64,000 nucleotides of DNA from Planctomycetota bacterium (GTDB lineage Bacteria; Planctomycetota; Phycisphaerae; Phycisphaerales; Phycisphaeraceae), in the NCBI GenBank assembly GCA_016350165.1, contig CP066225.1, positions 3,844,001-3,908,000 of the forward strand, read 5' to 3'. Under the pieces are notes generated by a model. The model did not search any database and was not told the origin of the DNA. It worked only from the letters and a program-made list of their open reading frames with translations. Positions 26,961 through 63,439 of this stretch are shown piece after piece. A program made the position numbers and the translations under genes. Positions within the stretch are counted from its first letter, which is position 1; the number at the start of each line of letters is the position of its first letter.

Positions 26961-29162
26961 TTACTTTGATTTCTTTATCTCAAGCGAATCAAATCGCACA
27001 CGAACACCACGATCATTCGTATATGCACCAATCCCAAAACTTTTATAACTATCAGCTGGTGCTTTCGCATGTTCAAACCGCCCAATCTCTTCGCCATCAA
27101 CAAACACAATAGATTCTTCTTCTGAAACATGCACCTCGAAGTTTACCGTGCGATCAAGCTTTGTCCTTAAATACTTACTTGGCACATCTGTTTGATCCGT
27201 CTTCAACGCAATCTCATCGGTTAATGGACAGAACCGCAATGCTGTATCGTGACAATTCTTCTCAACTAGAGCATGATAAAATAACGCAATATTTTGATAT
27301 CGATCCCCATAACTTTCAGGCGATTCTCCCATCAAAGTCGCTTTCCCTCTCACCTTAAATCTATGCCCAAAATCAACTGAATGCTTCAGCATCAATCCTT
27401 CTCGATAAGAAGCATTCTTTGAAGCACCTTCCAACCCACCATCAACAACTTCCCAATCTCCAAACACCATCTCCCATCCAACATTTGGCTCCCCTTCATC
27501 AATCAATTCAGTCCATTCACCATTGATATAATCCGTCAGCATCCGTATATACACAAAACGCTTCTTAATAAAGCCAAATTCCTTTTCATGAATCGAATCG
27601 TCCACTTCTATGTCCACAAGTATTTCATCTAACAACCTTAACGAATGGTCATAATCTTCCTTCGCAAAAGCCTTATCTGATTCCGTTAACCGCTCAGCAT
27701 AGTTACCGGTATATGCCAAAATAACACTCAAATCTAAGGGCATTTTATAAGGCAATGCTGTGGCAGACATATCTAGATTGTCACCCAACTTAATCGCCAA
27801 CTTACGAGATTTCTCTCGCATATCCATCTGCCAACAGTACGTCATATACGAACTCAATAAATAATTGTATACAACATCATTCGATTGATACGACTCATTC
27901 TCCGCCAGCTTTTCAAACATTTTTACGATGAAAGAACGGACTTTTGGATCTTCCAGAATCAGATATAACCTTGTGTCGCTAATAATATTTTTAATGCTAT
28001 ACCGAAGTTCCAAAGGCGCACGTGTGTCATATCTGTCAGAATTTAAACCAACTAAACCCACTAAGTACATCTTTAAATGACTACCACCCCAACGTGGTCG
28101 CATTGCCCACGACATCCATCGATACGCAGGATGATAATCGTGTTGTGCTGCAATCGCTTGACGAAACCAATACCACTCATCTTTAAGACCTTCAATGCTA
28201 TCGCTAGCACCCATCGTAACACGGATCAACAGCGCTGCCGCCTCTGCAAACTTGGGCTCAATCTCATGTGCTTTCTTTAAATGTTCTGCAGCTATTCTTG
28301 AATACGTATCAAAACCTTGCCAGCCAAAGCTCGTCACTTCACGGCTCCAACCACCACCACGCTCCGCCCACGCCATTTCCAACGCATGCACCCCACGAAA
28401 CATGTGATACATCCACGGATCAAGTTCATCCACTCTTTCTTCCAGCGTCTTCGCAAGGCTTCGTGATTTTAGTAATACATCTTTACTACTATTCTTAAAC
28501 CAGTCTTCCAATACACTAAAATAAACCCGCCTTAGCTCAGGCTTGTCCTTCATAAACTGGAAAAATTTCACAGCTTCAATATCGAGCGTCGTACCAAAAT
28601 AACTCTCATCTAACTTCTCATAATTCATCCTGGTAAATGAATCAAAAAACTGTGTAATCAAAAAGCGAATGTCAACAGGATATTTCATCTCAGGCAGCAA
28701 CTTGTATGCTTCTGTCAAACGCTTGTAATGCTCATCTTTGAAATGCTTCTTGTAATGCATCCTAAACATAGCAAACAGCACCAACGGATCATTGCATGAT
28801 TGATCCATTAACTTCTCACACCGCCAACCGATCTTCCCAAAATCAAGGCCACTTGTAGACAGCATTTTGTATGGGATCAACCCGGGCTCTACGTATGTGA
28901 TATATAGTTCAAAATCCTTCAGCAACGCTTCCGCATCAGCATCCCACGCATCCGAACGTTTGCCAAATTCACGATAAGCCTTCGTCAAATACCCCTTGAA
29001 ATACTGATGTTTTTCATTTTGCAAATCAAAATATGAGTATTCGCCATACTCAAAATTCTCAATGCTTGGGCTCGACTGTTCCTCCACGCTCATCGCCTGA
29101 CCATACAAACCGCCCGACACAAAAACCGTAAAACTTAATGCTATTGCAATAATGAATCTCAT
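26961..29162 (-). CDS. large secreted paralogue 1, helical repeat plus beta-sandwich, unknown
   Basis: About 733 aa from ATG 29162, the start that opens a signal peptide (MRFIIAIALSFTVFVSGGLYGQA); ATG 29168 and TTG 29180 are alternatives. Residues ~30-520 are helix-rich with TPR-like stretches (EHLKKAHEIEPKFAEAAAL). Residues ~540-733 form a beta-rich module (WEMVFGDWEVVDGGLEG...VRGKATL...FGIGAYTNDRGVRVRFDSLEI) like the concanavalin-type DUF1080/LamG-like domains that bind or cleave glycans. Catalytic residues were not identified. It lies 84 bp downstream of a paralogue of the same size. Probably an exported glycan-binding or scaffold protein. Confidence 0.65.
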   Translation of the reverse strand: MRFIIAIALSFTVFVSGGLYGQAMSVEEQSSPSIENFEYGEYSYFDLQNEKHQYFKGYLTKAYREFGKRSDAWDADAEALLKDFELYITYVEPGLIPYKMLSTSGLDFGKIGWRCEKLMDQSCNDPLVLFAMFRMHYKKHFKDEHYKRLTEAYKLLPEMKYPVDIRFLITQFFDSFTRMNYEKLDESYFGTTLDIEAVKFFQFMKDKPELRRVYFSVLEDWFKNSSKDVLLKSRSLAKTLEERVDELDPWMYHMFRGVHALEMAWAERGGGWSREVTSFGWQGFDTYSRIAAEHLKKAHEIEPKFAEAAALLIRVTMGASDSIEGLKDEWYWFRQAIAAQHDYHPAYRWMSWAMRPRWGGSHLKMYLVGLVGLNSDRYDTRAPLELRYSIKNIISDTRLYLILEDPKVRSFIVKMFEKLAENESYQSNDVVYNYLLSSYMTYCWQMDMREKSRKLAIKLGDNLDMSATALPYKMPLDLSVILAYTGNYAERLTESDKAFAKEDYDHSLRLLDEILVDIEVDDSIHEKEFGFIKKRFVYIRMLTDYINGEWTELIDEGEPNVGWEMVFGDWEVVDGGLEGASKNASYREGLMLKHSVDFGHRFKVRGKATLMGESPESYGDRYQNIALFYHALVEKNCHDTALRFCPLTDEIALKTDQTDVPSKYLRTKLDRTVNFEVHVSEEESIVFVDGEEIGRFEHAKAPADSYKSFGIGAYTNDRGVRVRFDSLEIKKSK

Positions 29163-29246
29163 ACACATATGATCTACCAATATTAGATATCAAGTTCAGT
29201 TAAACAACTTCCAGTTGATGATGACGACCCACACGCCGCAGCAAGT

Positions 29247-31463
29247 TTATTTACCATCATTCTTCACGATTTCTAACGATTCGAATCGCACTTTCACTTC
29301 AGAAATATGCGTCCATGACCCAATCCCAAACTGTCGATATTTCTTACTCTTAGGCGGGTCGATCGTGATGTCTAAAACCTGTTTTCCTTCTAAGAAAACA
29401 GTCACTTTCGTTCGATTTACATGCATCTCGAAATTGACTTCATTCTCTATGTCAGTTTTTCCGTATTGAATTGTCTTATCATAACTGTCTTGGAAAAAGC
29501 TGATCACATCATCTTGAGGGATTAAACCAATCGACATTTCTTTACTGTTATCCTCAACCAGTGCATGAAAGAAAAAGCCAATATTTTGATGAGCCTCATA
29601 CGCATCAGCCATAAAGCCGCTATCCAATTTAGCCTTCCCACGAATTTTATAATCTGTTCCAAACGGGAACTTGTGTACAAGCATCAATCCCTGACGATAT
29701 TTCGCTTGATTCGACGTGCCGACAAGTGCGCCATCTTCAACTTCCCATTCCCCATATTGCTTCTCCCAGCCAAGCATCGGATTTTCTGGATCAATAAGCT
29801 GTGTCCACTCACCCGCCATATACTGCTTCATTAGTTTTCCGAACTGATTACGTTCTTTGACATAAGCTAATTCAGCATCATGGACATTCTTATCCATTTT
29901 CATTTTTTTGAATAATTTATCTGTCGCGTCACTCGCCGCTGCATACTGTTGTTTTGCATACATCGCATCTGCTTTCAATAAAGCATCGCGATATTTCCCC
30001 GTATAAGCCAGCACCATCTCATGCTTCACCGCCTTCTGATCCAGTACCGCTGAAGCATTCGCTTTCACAACAACCGGCAACTTCAAAGCAAGCTCTTTCG
30101 CCTTTTCAAGCTCACCTACATGCCAGCAAAACCCCATATACTCCGCGTGATACCATTCCATATGCTTTGGATCTGATGCATACGTTGTGCTCGACAGCAC
30201 ACCCTCATACATCTCCATCATCGCGTCCTGAACCTCAATCCGATCCTTCGCAAACTGAATAGATTCAAGATCCTTCGCAATATCATTCACAATAACACGC
30301 AACATCAACGGCGCACGTGTATCAAATCGCCATGACAACATCCCAACAAGGCCAGCCGAAAACATCTTGTTATGATCGCCACCCCATCTCGGACGCATCG
30401 CCCACGAAATCGCATGATATGCAGGTATATAATCGTGTTGAGCTGCAATCGCTTGCCTGAACCAATACCAATCATTCGTACCATCAACCATTGCATCGCA
30501 ATTCCCCATCGCCACAGTTATCATCTCCGCAGCAGCGTAAGGCATCTCAGCATCAATCTTATGAGCTTTAATAAAATGCGAATATGCAACCGCAAGATTA
30601 TCACGGAAACCCAACCAACCTTCGTCCGTCACTTCACTTCCCCAATCAGAACCACGTTCTTCCCATGCACGTTGTGTATAATGCACACCCATGAACATGT
30701 GATACATCCACGGATCAACTTCATTCTTCACTTCTTTAAGCTTGTCTGCAAACACGCACAATGTTGGGAACGCGCGTTCACTATCTTCTTCAAACCAATT
30801 CATAAAATGGCTAAAATAAATCCCTCTTAACTCAGGTTTCCCCTTTAAAAACTTAAAAAACCGAATACCTTCATCAGTATACGTAGTCTTAAATTTGTGC
30901 TGAAAAATAGTGACATACTGTTCCCATGTATACTCATGATATAACTGCGTAATCATATAGCGTATGTCATCAGGATATCCCATGTCAGGCATCCAGAAGT
31001 ACGACCACTTTAAACGTTCATGCCGCCATTGGCGATGATTGAACTTATAGTACATTCTGAACATAGCCATCATCACTAACGGATCATCGCATGTCGTCTC
31101 CATCACCCGATCGCATCGTTCTCTCATCGCAGGAAAATCGATCCCACAATTATTGATGATCGTATAAGGATATTTATTTGGGATCAGATACGTTAGATAC
31201 AATTCAAAGTCGCTCAGAATTGCTTTCGCATCTTCATCCCAAGCAGCCGACTTCGATCCATACTTTTCATATGATTCAACCAGATAACCTTTGAAGTAAT
31301 TCAGCTTCTCTTGCTGTAAATCAAAATATGAATACTCACCATATTCAAACCCATCAGGTCCCGGACGATTCTCTCTACGATCAATTCCCGACTGCCCCCA
31401 CGCAAACGTCGGCAACGACATTATCGATGCAATGAGTAAGTAACTAATCAATCGTATATTCAT
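29247..31463 (-). CDS. large secreted paralogue 2, unknown
   Basis: 738 aa, tandem paralogue of the preceding gene and likely cotranscribed with it, since no terminator is seen in the gap. The signal peptide MNIRLISYLLIASIMSLPTFAWG is followed by the shared opening FEYGEYSYFDLQ.EK..YFKGYL, a helical mid-region (HYTQRAWEERGSDWGSEVTDEGWLGF; RQAIAAQHDYIPAYHAISWAMRPRWGG is nearly identical in both) and the C-terminal beta-rich domain (WEKQYGEWEVEDGALVG...GIGSWTHISEVKVRFESLEI). The two differ throughout, so the duplication is old. No enzymatic motif recognised. Confidence 0.65.
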   Translation of the reverse strand: MNIRLISYLLIASIMSLPTFAWGQSGIDRRENRPGPDGFEYGEYSYFDLQQEKLNYFKGYLVESYEKYGSKSAAWDEDAKAILSDFELYLTYLIPNKYPYTIINNCGIDFPAMRERCDRVMETTCDDPLVMMAMFRMYYKFNHRQWRHERLKWSYFWMPDMGYPDDIRYMITQLYHEYTWEQYVTIFQHKFKTTYTDEGIRFFKFLKGKPELRGIYFSHFMNWFEEDSERAFPTLCVFADKLKEVKNEVDPWMYHMFMGVHYTQRAWEERGSDWGSEVTDEGWLGFRDNLAVAYSHFIKAHKIDAEMPYAAAEMITVAMGNCDAMVDGTNDWYWFRQAIAAQHDYIPAYHAISWAMRPRWGGDHNKMFSAGLVGMLSWRFDTRAPLMLRVIVNDIAKDLESIQFAKDRIEVQDAMMEMYEGVLSSTTYASDPKHMEWYHAEYMGFCWHVGELEKAKELALKLPVVVKANASAVLDQKAVKHEMVLAYTGKYRDALLKADAMYAKQQYAAASDATDKLFKKMKMDKNVHDAELAYVKERNQFGKLMKQYMAGEWTQLIDPENPMLGWEKQYGEWEVEDGALVGTSNQAKYRQGLMLVHKFPFGTDYKIRGKAKLDSGFMADAYEAHQNIGFFFHALVEDNSKEMSIGLIPQDDVISFFQDSYDKTIQYGKTDIENEVNFEMHVNRTKVTVFLEGKQVLDITIDPPKSKKYRQFGIGSWTHISEVKVRFESLEIVKNDGK

Positions 31464-31570: not shown

Positions 31571-31706
31571 ATCACCACGCGCACGAAAAAGTCCAATCGC
31601 GCGCATTTGCAAATTTCAAACTTGCTCAAAACTCGACAAAACTCACTCGTTCCTTCACGTTTCGCTTCGTTTTTTCACAAAACTCACTCAAAACCCTTCA
31701 AAACTT
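31571..31706 (-). repeat. dispersed element, copy A, with phased GTTTTG triplets
   Basis: On the minus strand GTTTTG (or the variant GTTTG) begins at 31704, 31694, 31683 and again at 31642, 31632, 31621, so both triplets use the same 10- and 11-bp spacing. The element ends in TGCGCGCGATT, then TCGTGCGCGTGGTGAT. The same order and similar sequence recur on the plus strand at 60163-60287. Confidence 0.6.
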
Positions 31707-31792
31707 AGCGCGCACAAAATGAACGGTTCGTGCAAAACCTCTCTAGCAAACCATCACACCATCTTTATTTATAACTTTTGTGTATGTGAATC

Positions 31793-31832
31793 AAAAAAAA
31801 CGTGCGCGCTCGGCACTGCCAAACACGCACTT
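31793..31832 (-). terminator. terminator of alr
   Basis: Minus strand: a long stem of GTGCGTGTTTGGCA with TGCCGAGCGCGCAC (all paired with G-U allowed; the inner pairs open into the loop) followed by TTTTTTTT. Confidence 0.85.
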
Positions 31833-31858: not shown

Positions 31859-33148
31859 TCAGTCCTTGATGTACTTCCGTGGCACGTTCGTTGCAATTCT
31901 GCACAACAACTCCCAAGGGTGCGATCCAATCACCGCGCTCGTCGTCGGCACACTATTCGGCGCACTCGCGTCAGCACTATAAATCTCAACCACCGAGTCA
32001 GTTAACGCAGCCTCCGCTTCTTCAATACTTCCCAACTCCGCAACCACATCCGTCACATCCAATGTGATTTGGTCCATATTCACACGTCCCACCACTGGCA
32101 CATCAAAAATCGGCAACTTTTCATCACGCGGATGCAACCGCATCATCCCCTTGCTACTTAAAGCTAATGGGTATCCATCGCCGTAACCTATTGGTATCAC
32201 AGCAAGTACGGAATCACGCTCCAGTGTCGCGGTCCCGCCATAACCCACCTTCGAACCTGCAGGCATTGCCTGGACCATTGCGACGCTGGTCAGCCATGTG
32301 ACCACGTGCTTAAGTCCTTTGGTATCAGCGATTACCGGCCCACCTGCCTCCAAAAACTCATAACCATATCCCCAAAGACCAATCCCAGGCCGAATCATGT
32401 CGAAATGATATTTTCCATCCCGAAGCGTTGCACAAGTATTGCCTATGTGAAGAATTACATCGTCAGGCAATTTATCTGCATTGCGTTCGATCGACTGCTC
32501 GAAGTTTGTCCACTGGAAGTCGAGGAACTCAGGATTATCGTCAGCCGTCGCCATGTGCGTGTAGATCCCCGCCAAACGTACGTGCTTGTAATTACTGAAC
32601 TTAGCGACCATATCATCGAAATCATTCAGGCTGATTCCGCCTCTGCTCATCCCCGTGTCCAGCATGATATGAGCCGGAATCGTCAGCCCATAAGTCCTGC
32701 CTATATCATTAATTAAGCCAAGTTGGCGGAAGTTATGCACCGTCAAATGTAATTTGTCCTGTGACAGTGGGCGGTACAGTGAATCATCACGACCAAGTTT
32801 TGTGATCGGCAAAAACAGCAGTACTGGCTTGTTAACGCCACTTTTCAGCAATTCATCCGCTTCTTGCGGGCTGTAAACCGCGAGCATTTCGCATCCGATT
32901 TTGGCCAAGCGATGTGCAATAACATCCGCGCCCATGCCGTAGGCATCTTTTTTAACGACGCCGCAGACTTTGGATGGGGTGCGATTTTTCGAAGTTAAGT
33001 CACGTAGAGAGTTGACGTTATGGTCAAGTGCGTTAAGGTTGACTTCGACCCAGCTAACTGCGAGGGTATTGCCAGCTTCCTCAATCATGCGTCTGGTGAC
33101 TTGGGGAGACTCATTCACAGGGCTTGCGATTTGCGTTTGTTGGCTCAT
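31859..33148 (-). CDS. alr: alanine racemase
   Basis: 429 aa, somewhat longer than the usual ~370 because of ~30 extra residues at the N-terminus and a C-terminal tail. It is PLP-dependent and interconverts L- and D-alanine for peptidoglycan. The PLP Lys (about residue 66) is in VVKKDAYGMG, matching the usual VVKADAYGHG. LDTGMSRGG, HIGNTCATL, MIRPGIGLWGYG and the C-terminal VPVVGRVNMDQITLDVTD are also intact. The presence of alr fits a peptidoglycan-containing planctomycete. Upstream lie ~450 bp and the divergent helicase gene. Confidence 0.93.
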   Translation of the reverse strand: MSQQTQIASPVNESPQVTRRMIEEAGNTLAVSWVEVNLNALDHNVNSLRDLTSKNRTPSKVCGVVKKDAYGMGADVIAHRLAKIGCEMLAVYSPQEADELLKSGVNKPVLLFLPITKLGRDDSLYRPLSQDKLHLTVHNFRQLGLINDIGRTYGLTIPAHIMLDTGMSRGGISLNDFDDMVAKFSNYKHVRLAGIYTHMATADDNPEFLDFQWTNFEQSIERNADKLPDDVILHIGNTCATLRDGKYHFDMIRPGIGLWGYGYEFLEAGGPVIADTKGLKHVVTWLTSVAMVQAMPAGSKVGYGGTATLERDSVLAVIPIGYGDGYPLALSSKGMMRLHPRDEKLPIFDVPVVGRVNMDQITLDVTDVVAELGSIEEAEAALTDSVVEIYSADASAPNSVPTTSAVIGSHPWELLCRIATNVPRKYIKD

Positions 33149-58424: not shown

Positions 58425-59483
58425 ATGGAATCAGCAACTCAGATCGGTACAGGGATGTTCAAAGAAGCAGATCAGGCGAATAGCTCACGCACGTTTGTGA
58501 TCGCTGAGATTGGCGTAAATCATGACGGGGACATGAGTAAAGCAATTCAGTTGGTCAAGGATGCGAAGACGGCCGGAGCGGATGCTGTGAAATTTCAGTT
58601 GTTCAATCCAGATCGGCTACTGAGCAATCAGGCGATGCTGGCAGGGTATCAGGCAGGTAAAGCAAAAGGGGCACGCGAACTGCTGGCGGGGTTGATGTTG
58701 AGCGTGGATGAGATTGGGCAAATTTTAGCTGTGGCGAGAGATCTGGGGCTTAAAGGCGTGGTGACGCCGTTTAGCTTGGAGGACGTGGTGGACCTTGAAA
58801 AGCTTGATGTGGATGTGGTGAAGATTGCATCACCTGACGCGGTGAATGAGCCGTTACTTCAAGCTGTGAAAGGACTTGAAAAACCGTTGCTGATCTCAAC
58901 AGGGACATGCGAACTGGATGAACTCGAATTTGCTGCGGAACTGATTCGGGGACATGTAGCAGGGGGCGGATTGTTGCAATGTGTGTCGAGTTATCCGACG
59001 CCGATGGAGGAGGCGGGGCTTGGTGGGATTGGGGTGATGCGAGATCAGTTTAGTTTGCCGATTGGATACTCGGACCATACGCGGGATGTAAATACTGGGG
59101 CGATGGCGGTTTGTGCGGGAGCGGTGATAGTTGAGAAGCATTTGACGTACGATTGTAGGGCGGATGGGCCGGACCATGCGGCGAGCATGGATGGGGACGC
59201 ATTTTGTGCGTACGTGAAGAAAATTCGGGAGGCGGAAGTGATGATGGGTGCAAGGTTTAAGGGGATCAGGGATGTGGAGCGGGATGTGCGATTGGTGTCG
59301 CGGCAGAGCGTTTGTGCAGCGAAGGATTTGAAGATGGGCGATATTATTGGGGCAGGGGATTTGACGGTGAGACGCCCTGGCGATGGGGTGGCAGCGAAGG
59401 ATTTCGAGAAAGTGATCGGGCGGAAGATTAAGTCTAATAAGGAGTTAGGGGATTTGATTTATGGGGAAGATGTGGCGTGGTAA
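58425..59483 (+). CDS. N-acetylneuraminate synthase (NeuB) family protein
   Basis: 352 aa. A PEP-dependent synthase joining phosphoenolpyruvate to an amino sugar to make a nonulosonic acid (sialic, legionaminic or pseudaminic type). IAEIGVNHDGDMSKA, AVKFQLFNPDRLL, VVKIASPDAVNEPLL, LLISTGTC, LQCVSSYPTP and IGYSDHT are the TIM-barrel blocks. VIVEKHLTYD and a C-terminal SAF/antifreeze-like domain (RQSVCAAKDLKMGDIIGAGDLTVRRPGDG) complete it. Which sugar is used cannot be told. No other nonulosonate genes lie in the window. Confidence 0.88.
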   Translation: MESATQIGTGMFKEADQANSSRTFVIAEIGVNHDGDMSKAIQLVKDAKTAGADAVKFQLFNPDRLLSNQAMLAGYQAGKAKGARELLAGLMLSVDEIGQILAVARDLGLKGVVTPFSLEDVVDLEKLDVDVVKIASPDAVNEPLLQAVKGLEKPLLISTGTCELDELEFAAELIRGHVAGGGLLQCVSSYPTPMEEAGLGGIGVMRDQFSLPIGYSDHTRDVNTGAMAVCAGAVIVEKHLTYDCRADGPDHAASMDGDAFCAYVKKIREAEVMMGARFKGIRDVERDVRLVSRQSVCAAKDLKMGDIIGAGDLTVRRPGDGVAAKDFEKVIGRKIKSNKELGDLIYGEDVAW

Positions 59484-59955: not shown

Positions 59956-60116
59956 CTTTGCATACAAAGTGTGTGCGCATTTTTGTTTGAAAAGGTTTTA
60001 TTCTGTGCGTTTTTTGGCTTTTTATGCACTGGTTAATCACAATTTTTGTGCGCACGTTTTTTATGCGCGATCGACATGGATTGCTGTAAGTCGTTTGAAG
60101 ATGAGTTGTTGTGAAG

Positions 60117-60125
60117 TGTGGATAA
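60117..60125 (+). promoter_or_regulatory. consensus DnaA box
   Basis: TGTGGATAA, the exact complement of TTATCCACA. A second copy lies 28 bp downstream in the same orientation. Confidence 0.45.
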
Positions 60126-60144
60126 ATATTGGTGGAAAGTGGGG

Positions 60145-60153
60145 TGTGGATAA
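60145..60153 (+). promoter_or_regulatory. consensus DnaA box, second copy
   Basis: TGTGGATAA again, followed by an A-rich stretch and then the GTTTTG element. Confidence 0.45.
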
Positions 60154-60162
60154 AAAACAACT

Positions 60163-60287
60163 TGTTTTGAAGGATTTTAAGGCGGAAACGGCGCGGAACG
60201 GTGAGGTTTCGTTAAGTTTTGAACAGTTTTGAAGGAGTTTTGAAATGGGGCGCATACGTGAATGTTCGTTTTTGTGCGCGCGGTGAT
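60163..60287 (+). repeat. dispersed element, copy B, with phased GTTTTGA triplet
   Basis: GTTTTGA begins at 60216, 60226 and 60237 (spacing 10, 11) plus one at 60164, followed by GGGGCGCATACG and TTTTTGTGCGCGCGGTGAT. It parallels the minus-strand element at 31571-31706 in motif order, spacing and sequence. Confidence 0.6.
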
Positions 60288-60445
60288 ATGGACGAAGTTT
60301 TTTGGAGTTTGGTGGTAACCTCTATGAGGCTGGTTTGGCCATTGAGGGGTGAGTAAAAGATTTGGTTCAGATGGGGTGGTGGGATGAGGTGTTGGTTGTT
60401 CCACTAAAGCGTATCGCTGGTTGGTTCAATAGCGAGGTGTATGAT

Positions 60446-60460
60446 CTATTCGTTGATTAG
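60446..60460. repeat. degenerate stop-codon palindrome
   Basis: CTATTCGTTGATTAG matches 13 of 15 bases and contains the TAG stop of the minus-strand gene. Confidence 0.4.
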
Positions 60461-61339
60461 AGATTTGTATTGGGATTTGAGGTGAGTTTTAATTTGTTTG
60501 CGGAGTTGGGTGAGGGTGTAAAGCGTGGTGATGAGGATGAGGGTGCTTATGATTAGGGTGGTGGGGTAATGGATTTGATCGAAATTTTTTAGTGGGTGTT
60601 GTAATCGTTTATTGAAAAGTGAAATGTAGTAGTGGGTGAAAGTGTAAATGTTCATGAGGATGAAGGGGAGAAGGAGCAGGGGGATGTATTTGATTTGTTG
60701 GGTTAAGCGATGGCAATTGAGTGATTGGGTGATGTGGGTGGTGTAGCGGAAGAAGAGGGCGACGAAGGTGAAGGCAAGGAGTGGGAATGCGTTGATGCAG
60801 GCGGCGAAGATGATGTCGAAGCGGAATTTACTGCGGGTAGGGGTGTAGAAGAAAAGGTAGGCGAGGTTGGTGATGATGTAGATGGCGATGAAGGTGAGGA
60901 GGATACGAATGAGGTGACGGGTGAGGTTGTGTTTGTTGTTTGGGAAAGGAGAGAAGGCGGGGTTGTTGTTGGTGTAGAGGAAGTTGGCGATAAGGAAGGG
61001 GATGAAGGAGAGGGTGAGGGTGATACCTCCGAGGAAGAGGAGGGTTTGGTGAATGAATAATGCGGGGAGAGATGGGAGGATGAGCAGTGAGATGAGGGCG
61101 AGTGTGAAGGGGAAAAGGATGATGAGGAAGATGGTGGTGGTGATGAGAAGGAGGTTGATGGCGAGGGTGGTGATGTTGGGCCAATGCTTGGCGTGGCTGA
61201 GGTTGTCGAGGGTGCATTGGATGGGGGAGCCACATTCGGGGCAGGTTTGAGTGGGGGGTAGGGCGCGGAGATTGTACTTACAGTCGTAGCAAAGCAAGTT
61301 GGTTGAGATGGGTGATGTGGGTGGTTGATTGTTTGGCAT
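60446..61339 (-). CDS. zinc-ribbon multi-pass membrane protein, array member 1
   Basis: 297 aa. The N-terminal zinc ribbon CYDCKYNLRALPPTQTC..C (Cys17, Cys20, Cys33, Cys36) is followed by about six transmembrane helices. The CxxCxYNLR...CPECG ribbon is a common domain of planctomycete membrane proteins of unknown function. The coding strand is extremely C-rich and G-poor. No ribosome-binding site at ATG 61339. It is the last of four tandem minus-strand relatives; the gap to the next is only ~17 bp. Confidence 0.75.
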   Translation of the reverse strand: MPNNQPPTSPISTNLLCYDCKYNLRALPPTQTCPECGSPIQCTLDNLSHAKHWPNITTLAINLLLITTTIFLIILFPFTLALISLLILPSLPALFIHQTLLFLGGITLTLSFIPFLIANFLYTNNNPAFSPFPNNKHNLTRHLIRILLTFIAIYIITNLAYLFFYTPTRSKFRFDIIFAACINAFPLLAFTFVALFFRYTTHITQSLNCHRLTQQIKYIPLLLLPFILMNIYTFTHYYISLFNKRLQHPLKNFDQIHYPTTLIISTLILITTLYTLTQLRKQIKTHLKSQYKSLINE

Positions 61340-61356
61340 GGTGGGTTTGGGTGAGG

Positions 61357-61371
61357 CTAATCAATGATTAG
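61357..61371. repeat. stop-codon palindrome, exact copy
   Basis: CTAATCAATGATTAG contains the TAG stop of the 61357 gene on the minus strand (frame 1 of the palindrome). Confidence 0.75.
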
Positions 61372-62283
61372 AGGTTTTTGTGGTTTGTATAATGTTTTGA
61401 GGTATTGGTTGGTGAGGTGACGGGTTTTGTAGTTGAGTTTGATGATGAGGATGAGGAAGGAGAATGAAATGGTGAGTGAGGTGATGATGGTAGGGACGAA
61501 GAGGCTGGCCATGAAATGGCGAGCGGGTTGTGAGAAACATGCACAGATGAAAAGTGTGGCGGGGGCGAGGTAGAGACATGTGATGATGTTGGTGATGAGT
61601 GTGTAGAGCTTACTGAGTTTTGGGATATTTGTAGGGTTATTTGTGTATGCAGATAAGGTTGTTGTGGTGTGGGCGGTGTACTTGAAGAAATATTTGGTGA
61701 GTATTGTGATGGGGAGAGGGAAGCAGAATGCATAGAACATGACGGCGAGAATGAGGCGGTCGCGCCCATTGAAATGGTTGACGAATAGAGAAAAGATTGA
61801 GGCGATGATGAGGGCGATATTGATATAGAGTGTGATGCGAAGGCGAAGGCGAAGGCGAAGGCGAAGGCGGAGGCGGTAGGGTGGGGGTGATGTGAAGGGG
61901 TTGTAACGTTTGGTGTTGTTTGAGTAGTCTTGGACGCCGAGGGCGAAAGGGACGGGGAGGAAGCATGTGAAGATTGCGGTGAATGCGAAGATGATGAGGA
62001 CGAACTCGCCGTGAGGATCGAAGACGAGTGAGAGTGGAATGGCGAGAAGGATGATGGCGACGGAAGCGATGAGCCCAATAGATGCGAAGTTAAGATATGC
62101 GATGCCGTTGAGGAATTTTTGAGGCCAATGTACCTCCGTTTTGAATTTGTCGAGTGTATACTGAACGGGGGCTCCACATTCGGGACAGGTTTGAGAGGGT
62201 TCAAGTGTGCGGAGGTTGTATTTGCAGTCGTGGCAGAGGATGTCTGTGGTGATGCGGAGTTTGATGATGTTTTGTGATTGCAT
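61357..62283 (-). CDS. zinc-ribbon multi-pass membrane protein, array member 2
   Basis: 308 aa from ATG 62283, chosen over GTG 62292 because the zinc-ribbon Cys then fall at 17, 20, 33 and 36, exactly as in member 1 (CHDCKYNLRTLEPSQTC). About six transmembrane helices follow. A cytoplasmic or linking loop contains an (Arg-Leu)n run, RLRLRLRLRLRLR, encoded by a GCGAAG microsatellite at 61837. The stop lies in an exact palindrome. Function unknown. Confidence 0.75.
   Translation of the reverse strand: MQSQNIIKLRITTDILCHDCKYNLRTLEPSQTCPECGAPVQYTLDKFKTEVHWPQKFLNGIAYLNFASIGLIASVAIILLAIPLSLVFDPHGEFVLIIFAFTAIFTCFLPVPFALGVQDYSNNTKRYNPFTSPPPYRLRLRLRLRLRLRITLYINIALIIASIFSLFVNHFNGRDRLILAVMFYAFCFPLPITILTKYFFKYTAHTTTTLSAYTNNPTNIPKLSKLYTLITNIITCLYLAPATLFICACFSQPARHFMASLFVPTIITSLTISFSFLILIIKLNYKTRHLTNQYLKTLYKPQKPLIID
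61837..61876. repeat. hexanucleotide microsatellite inside the 61357 gene
   Basis: Five perfect GCGAAG units then GCGGAG and GCGGT. On the minus strand it encodes alternating Arg-Leu. Unit length is a multiple of three, so copy changes keep the frame. Confidence 0.85.
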
Positions 62284-62378
62284 AAATCGCACAGCCTCGG
62301 AAGTTGGTTGCGATGTAGGAGCCTTGGTTGTGGTATTAGTACGTGTAGTGTGAGTGATTGGTTCGTTTGGGGGGCAAG

Positions 62379-62393
62379 CTAATCAATGATTAG
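62379..62393. repeat. stop-codon palindrome, exact copy
   Basis: CTAATCAATGATTAG contains the TAA stop of the 62390 gene on the minus strand. Confidence 0.75.
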
Positions 62394-63439
62394 ATGATGA
62401 GTTTTGGGTTTCGGATATGTGCGAGTGCACAGCTTCTTATTTTTCGAGCAGTGAGTGCGGTGAATGAGTAGTTGAAGATCATGAGAAAGAAGATGATGAT
62501 GCAGAGGTAGGTGAATGAATGGTTGAGGAAGGTGAGGTGGCTGGGGTAATGATAGGATTTTGATGATGATTGGTGAAAGCTGTTTAAGTAGTCTTGGTAA
62601 GAGAGGGAGAGTTCGATGCCGTTGATGATGTAGAGCAAGGAGGCGAGGTAAATGATGGTTCGGAAGATGATTTTGTTTACTTTTGCAAGGGTTTTGCAGC
62701 TATTTGAGATTTTGTTTAGTGAGAAGTGAGTGGTGATGTAGGAGGTATAGGTGAAGAAGTTGGTGAATCTGGATGCGAGTGTGAAGACGAAGAGATAGGT
62801 GAGAGGGATGAAGAGCGCGGGTGTGATGATGTCACTATAGAGTGTCATTTGGTCTGCAGAGGATTGGCCACGAATATGGTTGGTGAGTATGAAGGGGATG
62901 GCGAGGGAGGCCAGGATGAAGATGGGGAAGAGGAGGCATGAAATGACGAGAGGCGCATTTGTTCTGGCGAGACGAATGCGTGATTTGAGGTAGATGAATT
63001 TTGGTGGGGTGTATTTTGGGGTGTCGGTGTAATCGCCTATGCAGACACATGAGCAGGTGAGGAGGATGACGCTGGTGATGCCGAAGAAGACGATAAGGAT
63101 GCAGGGGCTTACGTTGATTCCGATTGGAAGGATGTTGATAGGGTTGAGTAAAAGGATGGCGAATGTTGAGAGGAGGGCGGCGATGACGGAGAGGTTGATG
63201 ATGAATGTTTGGGAGGACTTGAGGTTGATGTACCAGTTGTCGTTTGTGATGTCTGTGGATCGGTAGATGAGGGATTTGTAGACGGAGTGGCCGCATTCGG
63301 GGCAGTTGTTGTGGATGCTTTGGGTGCGAAGATTGTATTCGCATTGATGGCATGCGAAGTCTTTGGAGACGTGGCCATCTTTGACGGGTGCGCTTTTGGG
63401 GATGGGTGGAAGTTTTTTTATTGGGGATGGTGTGGGCAT
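62390..63439 (-). CDS. zinc-ribbon multi-pass membrane protein, array member 3
   Basis: 349 aa. An N-terminal Pro/Lys-rich leader, zinc ribbon CHQCEYNLRTQSIHNNC..C (Cys30, 33, 46, 49), then about seven hydrophobic helices. Same layout as members 1 and 2, with lower sequence similarity. No ribosome-binding site at the ATG. Separated by about 100 bp from member 2 and 4 bp from the stop of member 4, so members 3 and 4 are likely cotranscribed. Confidence 0.7.
   Translation of the reverse strand: MPTPSPIKKLPPIPKSAPVKDGHVSKDFACHQCEYNLRTQSIHNNCPECGHSVYKSLIYRSTDITNDNWYINLKSSQTFIINLSVIAALLSTFAILLLNPINILPIGINVSPCILIVFFGITSVILLTCSCVCIGDYTDTPKYTPPKFIYLKSRIRLARTNAPLVISCLLFPIFILASLAIPFILTNHIRGQSSADQMTLYSDIITPALFIPLTYLFVFTLASRFTNFFTYTSYITTHFSLNKISNSCKTLAKVNKIIFRTIIYLASLLYIINGIELSLSYQDYLNSFHQSSSKSYHYPSHLTFLNHSFTYLCIIIFFLMIFNYSFTALTARKIRSCALAHIRNPKLII

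Follow-up and report, generated by a model that had tools for sequence, protein, structure and literature searches.

Helically phased A/T-tract elements framed by GTGCGC nodes form a large dispersed intergenic class in Poriferisphaera and may be curved or wrapping DNA sites at gene 3' ends

Two intergenic copies of a helically phased repeat, copy A and copy B, belong to a large class of dispersed intergenic elements in the marine planctomycete Poriferisphaera. Both lie in the window, a stretch of 64,000 nucleotides covering bases 3844001-3908000 of the source genome, which consists of one contig of 5,234,020 bp. A preliminary description had taken the two copies for one element, and had made this reading depend on further copies in the genome and its relatives. 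As shown by a genome-wide pattern search, TTYGTGCGCRC nodes occur 332 times in the source genome (6 times when the pattern is reversed) and 157 times (again 6 reversed) in the sister genome, the congener G001 (4,291,168 bp). A looser pattern and BLAST with copy A had several further loci in common. The opposite outcome, a pair confined to a single genome and without conservation, was clearly not what the search returned.

Copies A and B (Table 1) were examined letter by letter. The phased GTTTTG heptamers of copy A were confirmed on the minus strand, with starts at 31704/31694/31683 and 31642/31632/31621 and steps of 10 then 11 bp; five of these six motifs are of the GTTTTG type as first described, but the sixth (31621) reads GTTTGA. 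Copy B has the same 10 then 11 bp steps from plus-strand starts 60216/60226/60237, and the ends said to be shared are present, as GTGCGCGTGGTGAT in copy A and GTGCGCGCGGTGAT in copy B. The exact form GTTTTG-N4-GTTTTG-N5-GTTTTG gave 2 matches in the 5.23-Mb genome, which are A and B themselves, and its reversed form gave 0. The power at 10.5 bp was 10.8 in A (p=0.006) and 14.4 in B (p=0.001), with dinucleotide-shuffle means of 1.8 and 1.7. The extent originally proposed, 31571-31706, was too short, as A spans about 31577-31810. The left node of copy A (GCGCGCAC) is also the 3' arm of the strong alr terminator hairpin.

A model of the family of copy B, built from B, L058 and L192 (the last from a targeted place), matched copy A in nhmmer (E=1.6e-9) over model positions 117-233, which supported the view that the two phased intergenic copies are one element. 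The same model matched a full-length unit of the sister genome, L245 (E=2.3e-11), and weakly the sister locus L166, which is the ortholog locus of L058 (E=4e-5). Copy B and L058:12973 were 73% identical over 244 aligned columns, and the alignment of A, B, L058, L192 and L245 had 236 columns with a mean column identity of 72%.

Table 1 Features of copies A and B and their neighbouring genes in the window.
Feature	Position	Strand	Remarks
Copy A, full element	31577..31810	-	node to node ~225-226 bp; aligned with B, L058, L192 and sister L245
First phased GTTTTG triplet, copy A	31678..31704	-	10, 11 bp steps
Second phased triplet, copy A (GTTTTG, GTTTTG, GTTTGA)	31616..31642	-	
Internal GTGCGCGC node, copy A	31708..31715	-	
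Right node, copy A, degenerate GTGCGCGT	31577..31584	-	
alr terminator hairpin	31802..31830	-	fold -22.5 kcal/mol, z -4.69; 3' arm GCGCGCAC
Copy B, full element	60048..60281	+	nodes 60048-60055 and 60274-60281, spacing 226
Phased GTTTTG triplet, copy B	60216..60242	+	
alr, alanine racemase	31859..33148	-	upstream of copy A; Pfam Ala_racemase_N/C
3keto-disac_hyd / DUF4034 gene	29247..31463	-	downstream of copy A; Pfam
NeuB-family gene	58425..59483	+	upstream of copy B; Pfam

Several other features of the window were recorded. The tail past copy B (60319-60440) carries CCTCTATGAGG, also found in L063 and L143 of the source genome and absent from the sister sample, and GGCCATTGAGG, also found in L063 and L124 of the source genome and twice in the sister sample. 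Three successive minus-strand ORFs at 60446-63439 have, by eye, similar starts resembling CxxC zinc ribbons and hydrophobic stretches, and had no Pfam match. Two adjacent minus-strand genes at 26961-31463 encode 739 and 738 aa and, to the eye, resemble paralogues; 3keto-disac_hyd/DUF4034 matched one of them, and the other had no match at all. The GC skew is very strong over the whole window, with sign changes and values up to 0.68 at 60-62 kb, and looks linked to gene strand.

To describe the wider class, we used a sample of 1.264 Mb of source sequence (60 stretches plus the window, 24% of the genome), which held 83 node hits in 39 clusters. When nodes 60-330 bp apart were counted as pairs, 36 pairs were obtained, 18 at 147-150 bp, 7 at 158-162, 8 at 202-235 and 3 at 65-68. 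The units form subfamilies X, Y and Z; among the 41 units compared the best pairs were 73-78% identical, and none were near-identical recent copies. A and B are Z units, about 234 bp long with a node spacing of about 226 bp. Two subfamilies of X are offset from each other by about 10 bp close to the left end; this is compensated elsewhere, which leaves the total spacing at 149-150. An X unit is present at full length in the sister genome (L218, E=5e-24) with a partial Y unit beside it, and a composite Y-X unit recurs. Near their 3' end, Y units (for example L064:8830-8987 and L131:1386-1543) conserve AAGGAGTTATG / AAGGACTTATG, which resembles a ribosome site plus start codon and is also seen in the sister alr element (L251).

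The helical phase of the class was then determined. Across 33 source units the AAA/TTT correlation was raised at lags 10, 21, 31 and 42 (z 9.2, 5.4, 7.7 and 8.4 relative to dinucleotide shuffles), and 332 element-free source intergenic regions gave no such lag signal. Fourier analysis showed a peak at 10.5 bp in source and sister units alike. With homologous units removed (17 of 33 source and 15 of 16 sister units retained), the mean 10.5-bp power was 6.8 and 6.2, respectively; shuffles averaged about 1.7, and no set out of 300 shuffled ones rose above 3.0. Single units reached p<0.05 in 18 of 33 source and 8 of 16 sister cases, which limits a reading by shape; element-free windows did so in 17 of 298, about chance level.

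AAA and TTT tracts have a common phase. Twenty aligned X-type units (15 X units and 5 related ones) were compared at nine phased columns picked as AAA/TTT-rich, which held 81 AAA, 40 TTT, 6 mixed A/T triplets, 42 other and 11 gapped. Independent (shuffled) columns would give 67 mixed triplets instead of 6, a comparison in which the choice of AAA/TTT-rich columns itself lowers the mixed count. A tree built without these nine columns requires a minimum of 19 changes between AAA and TTT. Because the tracts swap strand and yet keep phase, a shape-specific site is likelier than a sequence-specific one. The cooperative DNA-binding site first suggested is supported as far as action at the DNA level goes, but its sequence-specific form is less likely than a shape-specific one. 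Predicted curvature, computed from wedge values, had a mean z against shuffles of -3.8 in the source (33 units) and -4.75 in the sister genome (14 units), and fell below -1.64 in 23 of 33 and 11 of 14 units.

The phase of the tracts was also compared with the position of the nodes, in source and sister units and in G027, whose genome belongs to a different family of the same order. Measured from the left node (mod 10.5), the phase was 0.5 and 10.3 in the source short-unit sets, 9.6 in the sister genome and 9.6 in G027, an agreement within about 1.4 bp among the short source, targeted source, sister and G027 sets, whose p-values ignore homology among units. Units with a coherence <0.25 were dropped, which kept 20/25, 7/8, 10/16, 14/16 and 14/14 units; 21 extra source units came from targeted places, and the sister units for period, curvature and phase lock were drawn from a list with two targeted loci, L251 and L252. 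Source units >200 bp, to which A and B belong by size, had a phase of 3.3 without significant locking to the nodes, and in the sister genome and G027 locking to the right node fell short of significance. Judging from tract swapping and node-locked phase, selection appears to keep phase and spacing more than letters.

Placement along the chromosome was examined with simple ORF picks as gene calls. Node hits were intergenic in 76 cases and within ORFs in 6 in the source sample, where 81% of the sequence is coding, and in 43 and 2 cases in the sister genome. Among source gaps >=200 bp, nodes were present in 9/42 convergent, 25/205 tandem and 2/97 divergent gaps, and the sister values were 7/39, 11/197 and 3/79 (gaps between ORFs >=140 aa, small genes within them ignored). 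In the source, the frequency of nodes follows how many gene 3' ends a gap has; for the sister it is chiefly the convergent gaps that show an excess, and its small difference between tandem and divergent gaps (5.6% vs 3.8%) counts against a role at gene 3' ends, which is the reading we prefer below. A and B do lie past the terminator of a gene in the same orientation, as first reported, but this does not extend to the wider class, since element and gene strand in tandem gaps were the same in 10 and opposite in 8 cases in the source and the same in 1 and opposite in 4 in the congener.

The sister alr ortholog has an element with GTGCGC nodes past the gene, and GTGCGC nodes also lie past the gene at the sister neuB ortholog locus; by eye, the sister element at alr shows little likeness to copy A beyond nodes and tract pattern. 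On the 3' side of orthologous genes, a sister node was present for 3/6 source element gaps versus 4/111 node-free gaps (p=0.0025), for 2/5 versus 4/111 when the targeted alr locus was left out (p=0.021), and for 4/7 element gaps when the neuB locus, read by eye, was included. On the 5' side the count was 0/5 source element gaps. The element L112 starts at a terminator T run and the corresponding sister gap, L242, holds no element; L244 (sister) and L056 (source) are the reverse case. Element positions are therefore conserved in part, with gain and loss besides; gain and loss between congeners, being what a mobile repeat would show, counts against the preferred reading.

Among relatives the distribution is patchy. 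Any GTTTYG triple was found in 7/151 genomes of the order and 22/248 of the class (overlapping sets), and in several of these genomes the triples are exact tandem repeats. In G027, 85 GTTTYG triples, overlapping matches included, compared with 18 reversed, and the elements there extend from GTGCGCAC or ATGCGCAC up to nodes of the GCGCGC type. Under a looser node definition, 20 stretches (5 without an array, 1 without a right node) left 14 measured units, which are copies of related repeats; their node spacing was 146 in 8/14 and 158-160 in 4/14, with the others at 196 and 229, and the peak was again at 10.5 bp. The G027 model matched the source once, weakly (E=1e-4), and the sister not at all, while five weak matches to the Z model were obtained in G027 (best 2e-5); the likeness to G027 is therefore mainly one of architecture. 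G018, another genus of the same family, had 13 node pairs in 20 stretches, 12 at 213-247 bp and one at 174, and its elements (L285-L304) carry CGGACAT motifs repeated every ~10-12 bp. Repeated TGTCCGGACA palindromes were also observed in these G018 elements.

Other candidate relatives were set aside. Forward and reversed triples were near equal in G201 (20 and 19), those of G191, G278 and G293 appear to be exact tandem repeats of 10 bp, and the node hits of G026 (7 loci) were, by eye, chance matches in coding DNA. Also by eye, the G021 and G005 loci showed no clear 10.5-bp arrays. A scan of a contig collection, from which records of the source genome or near relatives were possibly excluded, returned two contigs with paired nodes, unrelated by eye. 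G006 and G015 (L171-L188, L190) carry repeats of ~100-101 bp whose ends are of the TTTGTGCGCGC type and many of which lie close to the end of a contig; homology with these was rejected, as the ends are alike but phasing is absent by eye.

We give an even chance to the reading that the elements are shape-coded curved or wrapping DNA sites at gene 3' ends, similar to BIME and gyrase sites and served by a presumed protein partner. The element would act as double-stranded DNA. GTGCGC nodes, mostly 147-150 or 158-162 bp apart (226 in the A/B family), frame runs of AAA/TTT tracts 10.5 bp apart, and these tracts would curve the DNA, as predicted, or give its wrapping a set direction. Such a site would probably be a docking place for a protein that wraps DNA and deals with the supercoiling which transcription causes at the ends of genes; the first candidate would be gyrase, acting in the BIME-2 manner, and the second a nucleoid protein. 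The length scale and the phasing suit gyrase, as does the order convergent > tandem > divergent, which would be expected of positive supercoiling.

The available text of PMC6379681 describes E. coli gyrase sites as a 130-bp motif with a phased 10-bp G/C variation explained by wrapping, and enriched in BIME-2 elements, which hold gyrase cleavage sites. With their 10.5-bp period, the Poriferisphaera elements as a class show the ~130-bp phased A/T-G/C pattern of gyrase wrapping sites, and they resemble gyrase sites, including the strong gyrase site of Mu, in the 130-bp scale and the phased G/C wrapping pattern, as far as described in the available parts of PMC6379681 and PMC12393610. They differ in that the array is framed by GTGCGC nodes and the period is 10.5 bp. 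The available text of PMC6379681 also states that gyrase attraction downstream of genes in E. coli is not hard-wired by motif score, which counts against the preferred reading.

Periodicity of A-tracts in bacterial intergenic DNA has long been described, for example in 2004, without a clear unit of function, and is similar to the present signal in that AA/TT recur near the helical repeat, mainly between genes (available parts of PMC516772). Unlike that general periodicity, the Poriferisphaera signal is confined, within the intergenic DNA sampled, to separate elements framed by nodes. In the portions available of the literature searched on phased or curved intergenic repeats and on planctomycetes, no description of this element was found, and the accessible main text of a Phycisphaerae genome survey (PMC11266412) does not contain the words intergenic, repeat or non-coding.

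The main rival to the shape-coded reading is a selfish, non-autonomous mobile repeat, MITE- or REP-like, which would settle past terminators where insertion is harmless and whose phasing would serve its own transposition or be inherited; we regard it as rather unlikely. The dispersed subfamilies with best pairs 73-78% identical, the recurring Y-X composite, the gain and loss at L112/L242 and L244/L056, the G006/G015 repeats at contig ends and ends that can pair in 32/33 units all fit such a family. Most left unit ends read TTTGTGCGC, like the right ends, and the node is near-palindromic, which is why the ends pair. The elements are like MITEs in being short and dispersed with ends able to pair, but unlike them in lacking target duplication and, within the only family searched (Y1), a parent transposase. 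Target-site duplication scored a mean of 0.27 against 0.33 for shuffled partners in 41 source clusters, some from targeted places, and 0.25 against 0.23 in 12 sister clusters.

Y1_Tnp (PF01797) was found in only one gene of the genome (L037:506-864, G000:680223-680581), read as IS200-like; it lies about 0.6 kb from a phased element and stays broken when read in three frames. As this sole gene is isolated and broken, an origin from a REP transposase was rejected, and the few genes beside paired elements that were read by eye are no transposases. Like REP/BIME elements, the units are dispersed, extragenic and present in many copies and subfamilies. REPs, as characterized in the accessible part of PMC3733652, are palindromic, 20-40 bp long and tagged by GTAG or CGTC; the present units are no such palindromes, and no associated RAYT/Y1 transposase other than the broken gene was found. 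In contrast to REPs, the node spacing is 147-235 bp in 33/36 pairs and 65-68 in the remaining 3, the interior is non-palindromic and phasing is the constant feature. The letters GTAG do occur within X units (CCCGTAGT). AAA/TTT swaps that keep phase, and spacing and period alike in another family of the order, also speak against a mobile repeat.

Another reading, which overlaps with the second candidate named above, takes the elements as docking sites for a nucleoid-associated protein (HU-like or bridging) that folds the chromosome, in place of gyrase. Hundreds of nodes, in samples from across the chromosome, agree with it, as does the stronger A-tract periodicity of genomes with DNA-bridging nucleoid proteins reported in the accessible part of PMC3940949. 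The model does not require the 3'-end bias, and wrapping by a histone fold was rejected, since PF00808 had no match in the genome and matches in 3/14 control genomes. We consider this reading unlikely.

Sites of a sequence-specific cooperative regulator, or iterons, would account for the direct GTTTTGA repeats with 10-11 bp steps in A and B, but are very improbable given that AAA and TTT interchange, that dispersed nodes number in the hundreds and that nodes are rare in divergent (promoter) gaps. The suggestion of iterons did not hold up, as a Pfam scan of eight proteins neighbouring A and B, the alr, 3keto-disac_hyd and NeuB products among them, found no replication family.

A conserved small RNA or 3'-UTR structure, also suggested at first, is hardly to be expected. 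It would suit the position of A and B past terminators in gene orientation, and whole units do fold better than shuffles on both strands (mean z -2.1 and -2.3, 33 units), but this excess arises because the two near-palindromic ends pair (32/33 units); the interiors hold little structure (mean z of -0.5 for one strand and -0.2 for the other, with 4 and 2 of 33 below -2). The small RNA was rejected on this interior fold and on the free orientation to genes, and Rfam at gathering thresholds had no match at A or B.

Returning to the shape-coded reading, we suggest with some reserve that what is inherited and selected in this class is not sequence but a helical phase, with A/T tracts every 10.5 bp, locked to nodes ~147-160 bp apart. 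Perhaps, too, the letters turn over (GTTTTGA, GAAATGG and, in a further genus, possibly CGGACAT) without loss of the architecture from one family of the order to the next, a proposal we make only tentatively. In Poriferisphaera heterotrophicis ZRK32 and P. corsica KS4, both of them culturable, A-tract periodicity comes in separate elements at gene ends that can be counted and are free in orientation. Selection on curvature and a reader protein are therefore directly testable. If the shape-coded reading is true, the elements would be a hard-wired wrapping site for topology control past genes and a bacterial counterpart of a nucleosome-positioning sequence.
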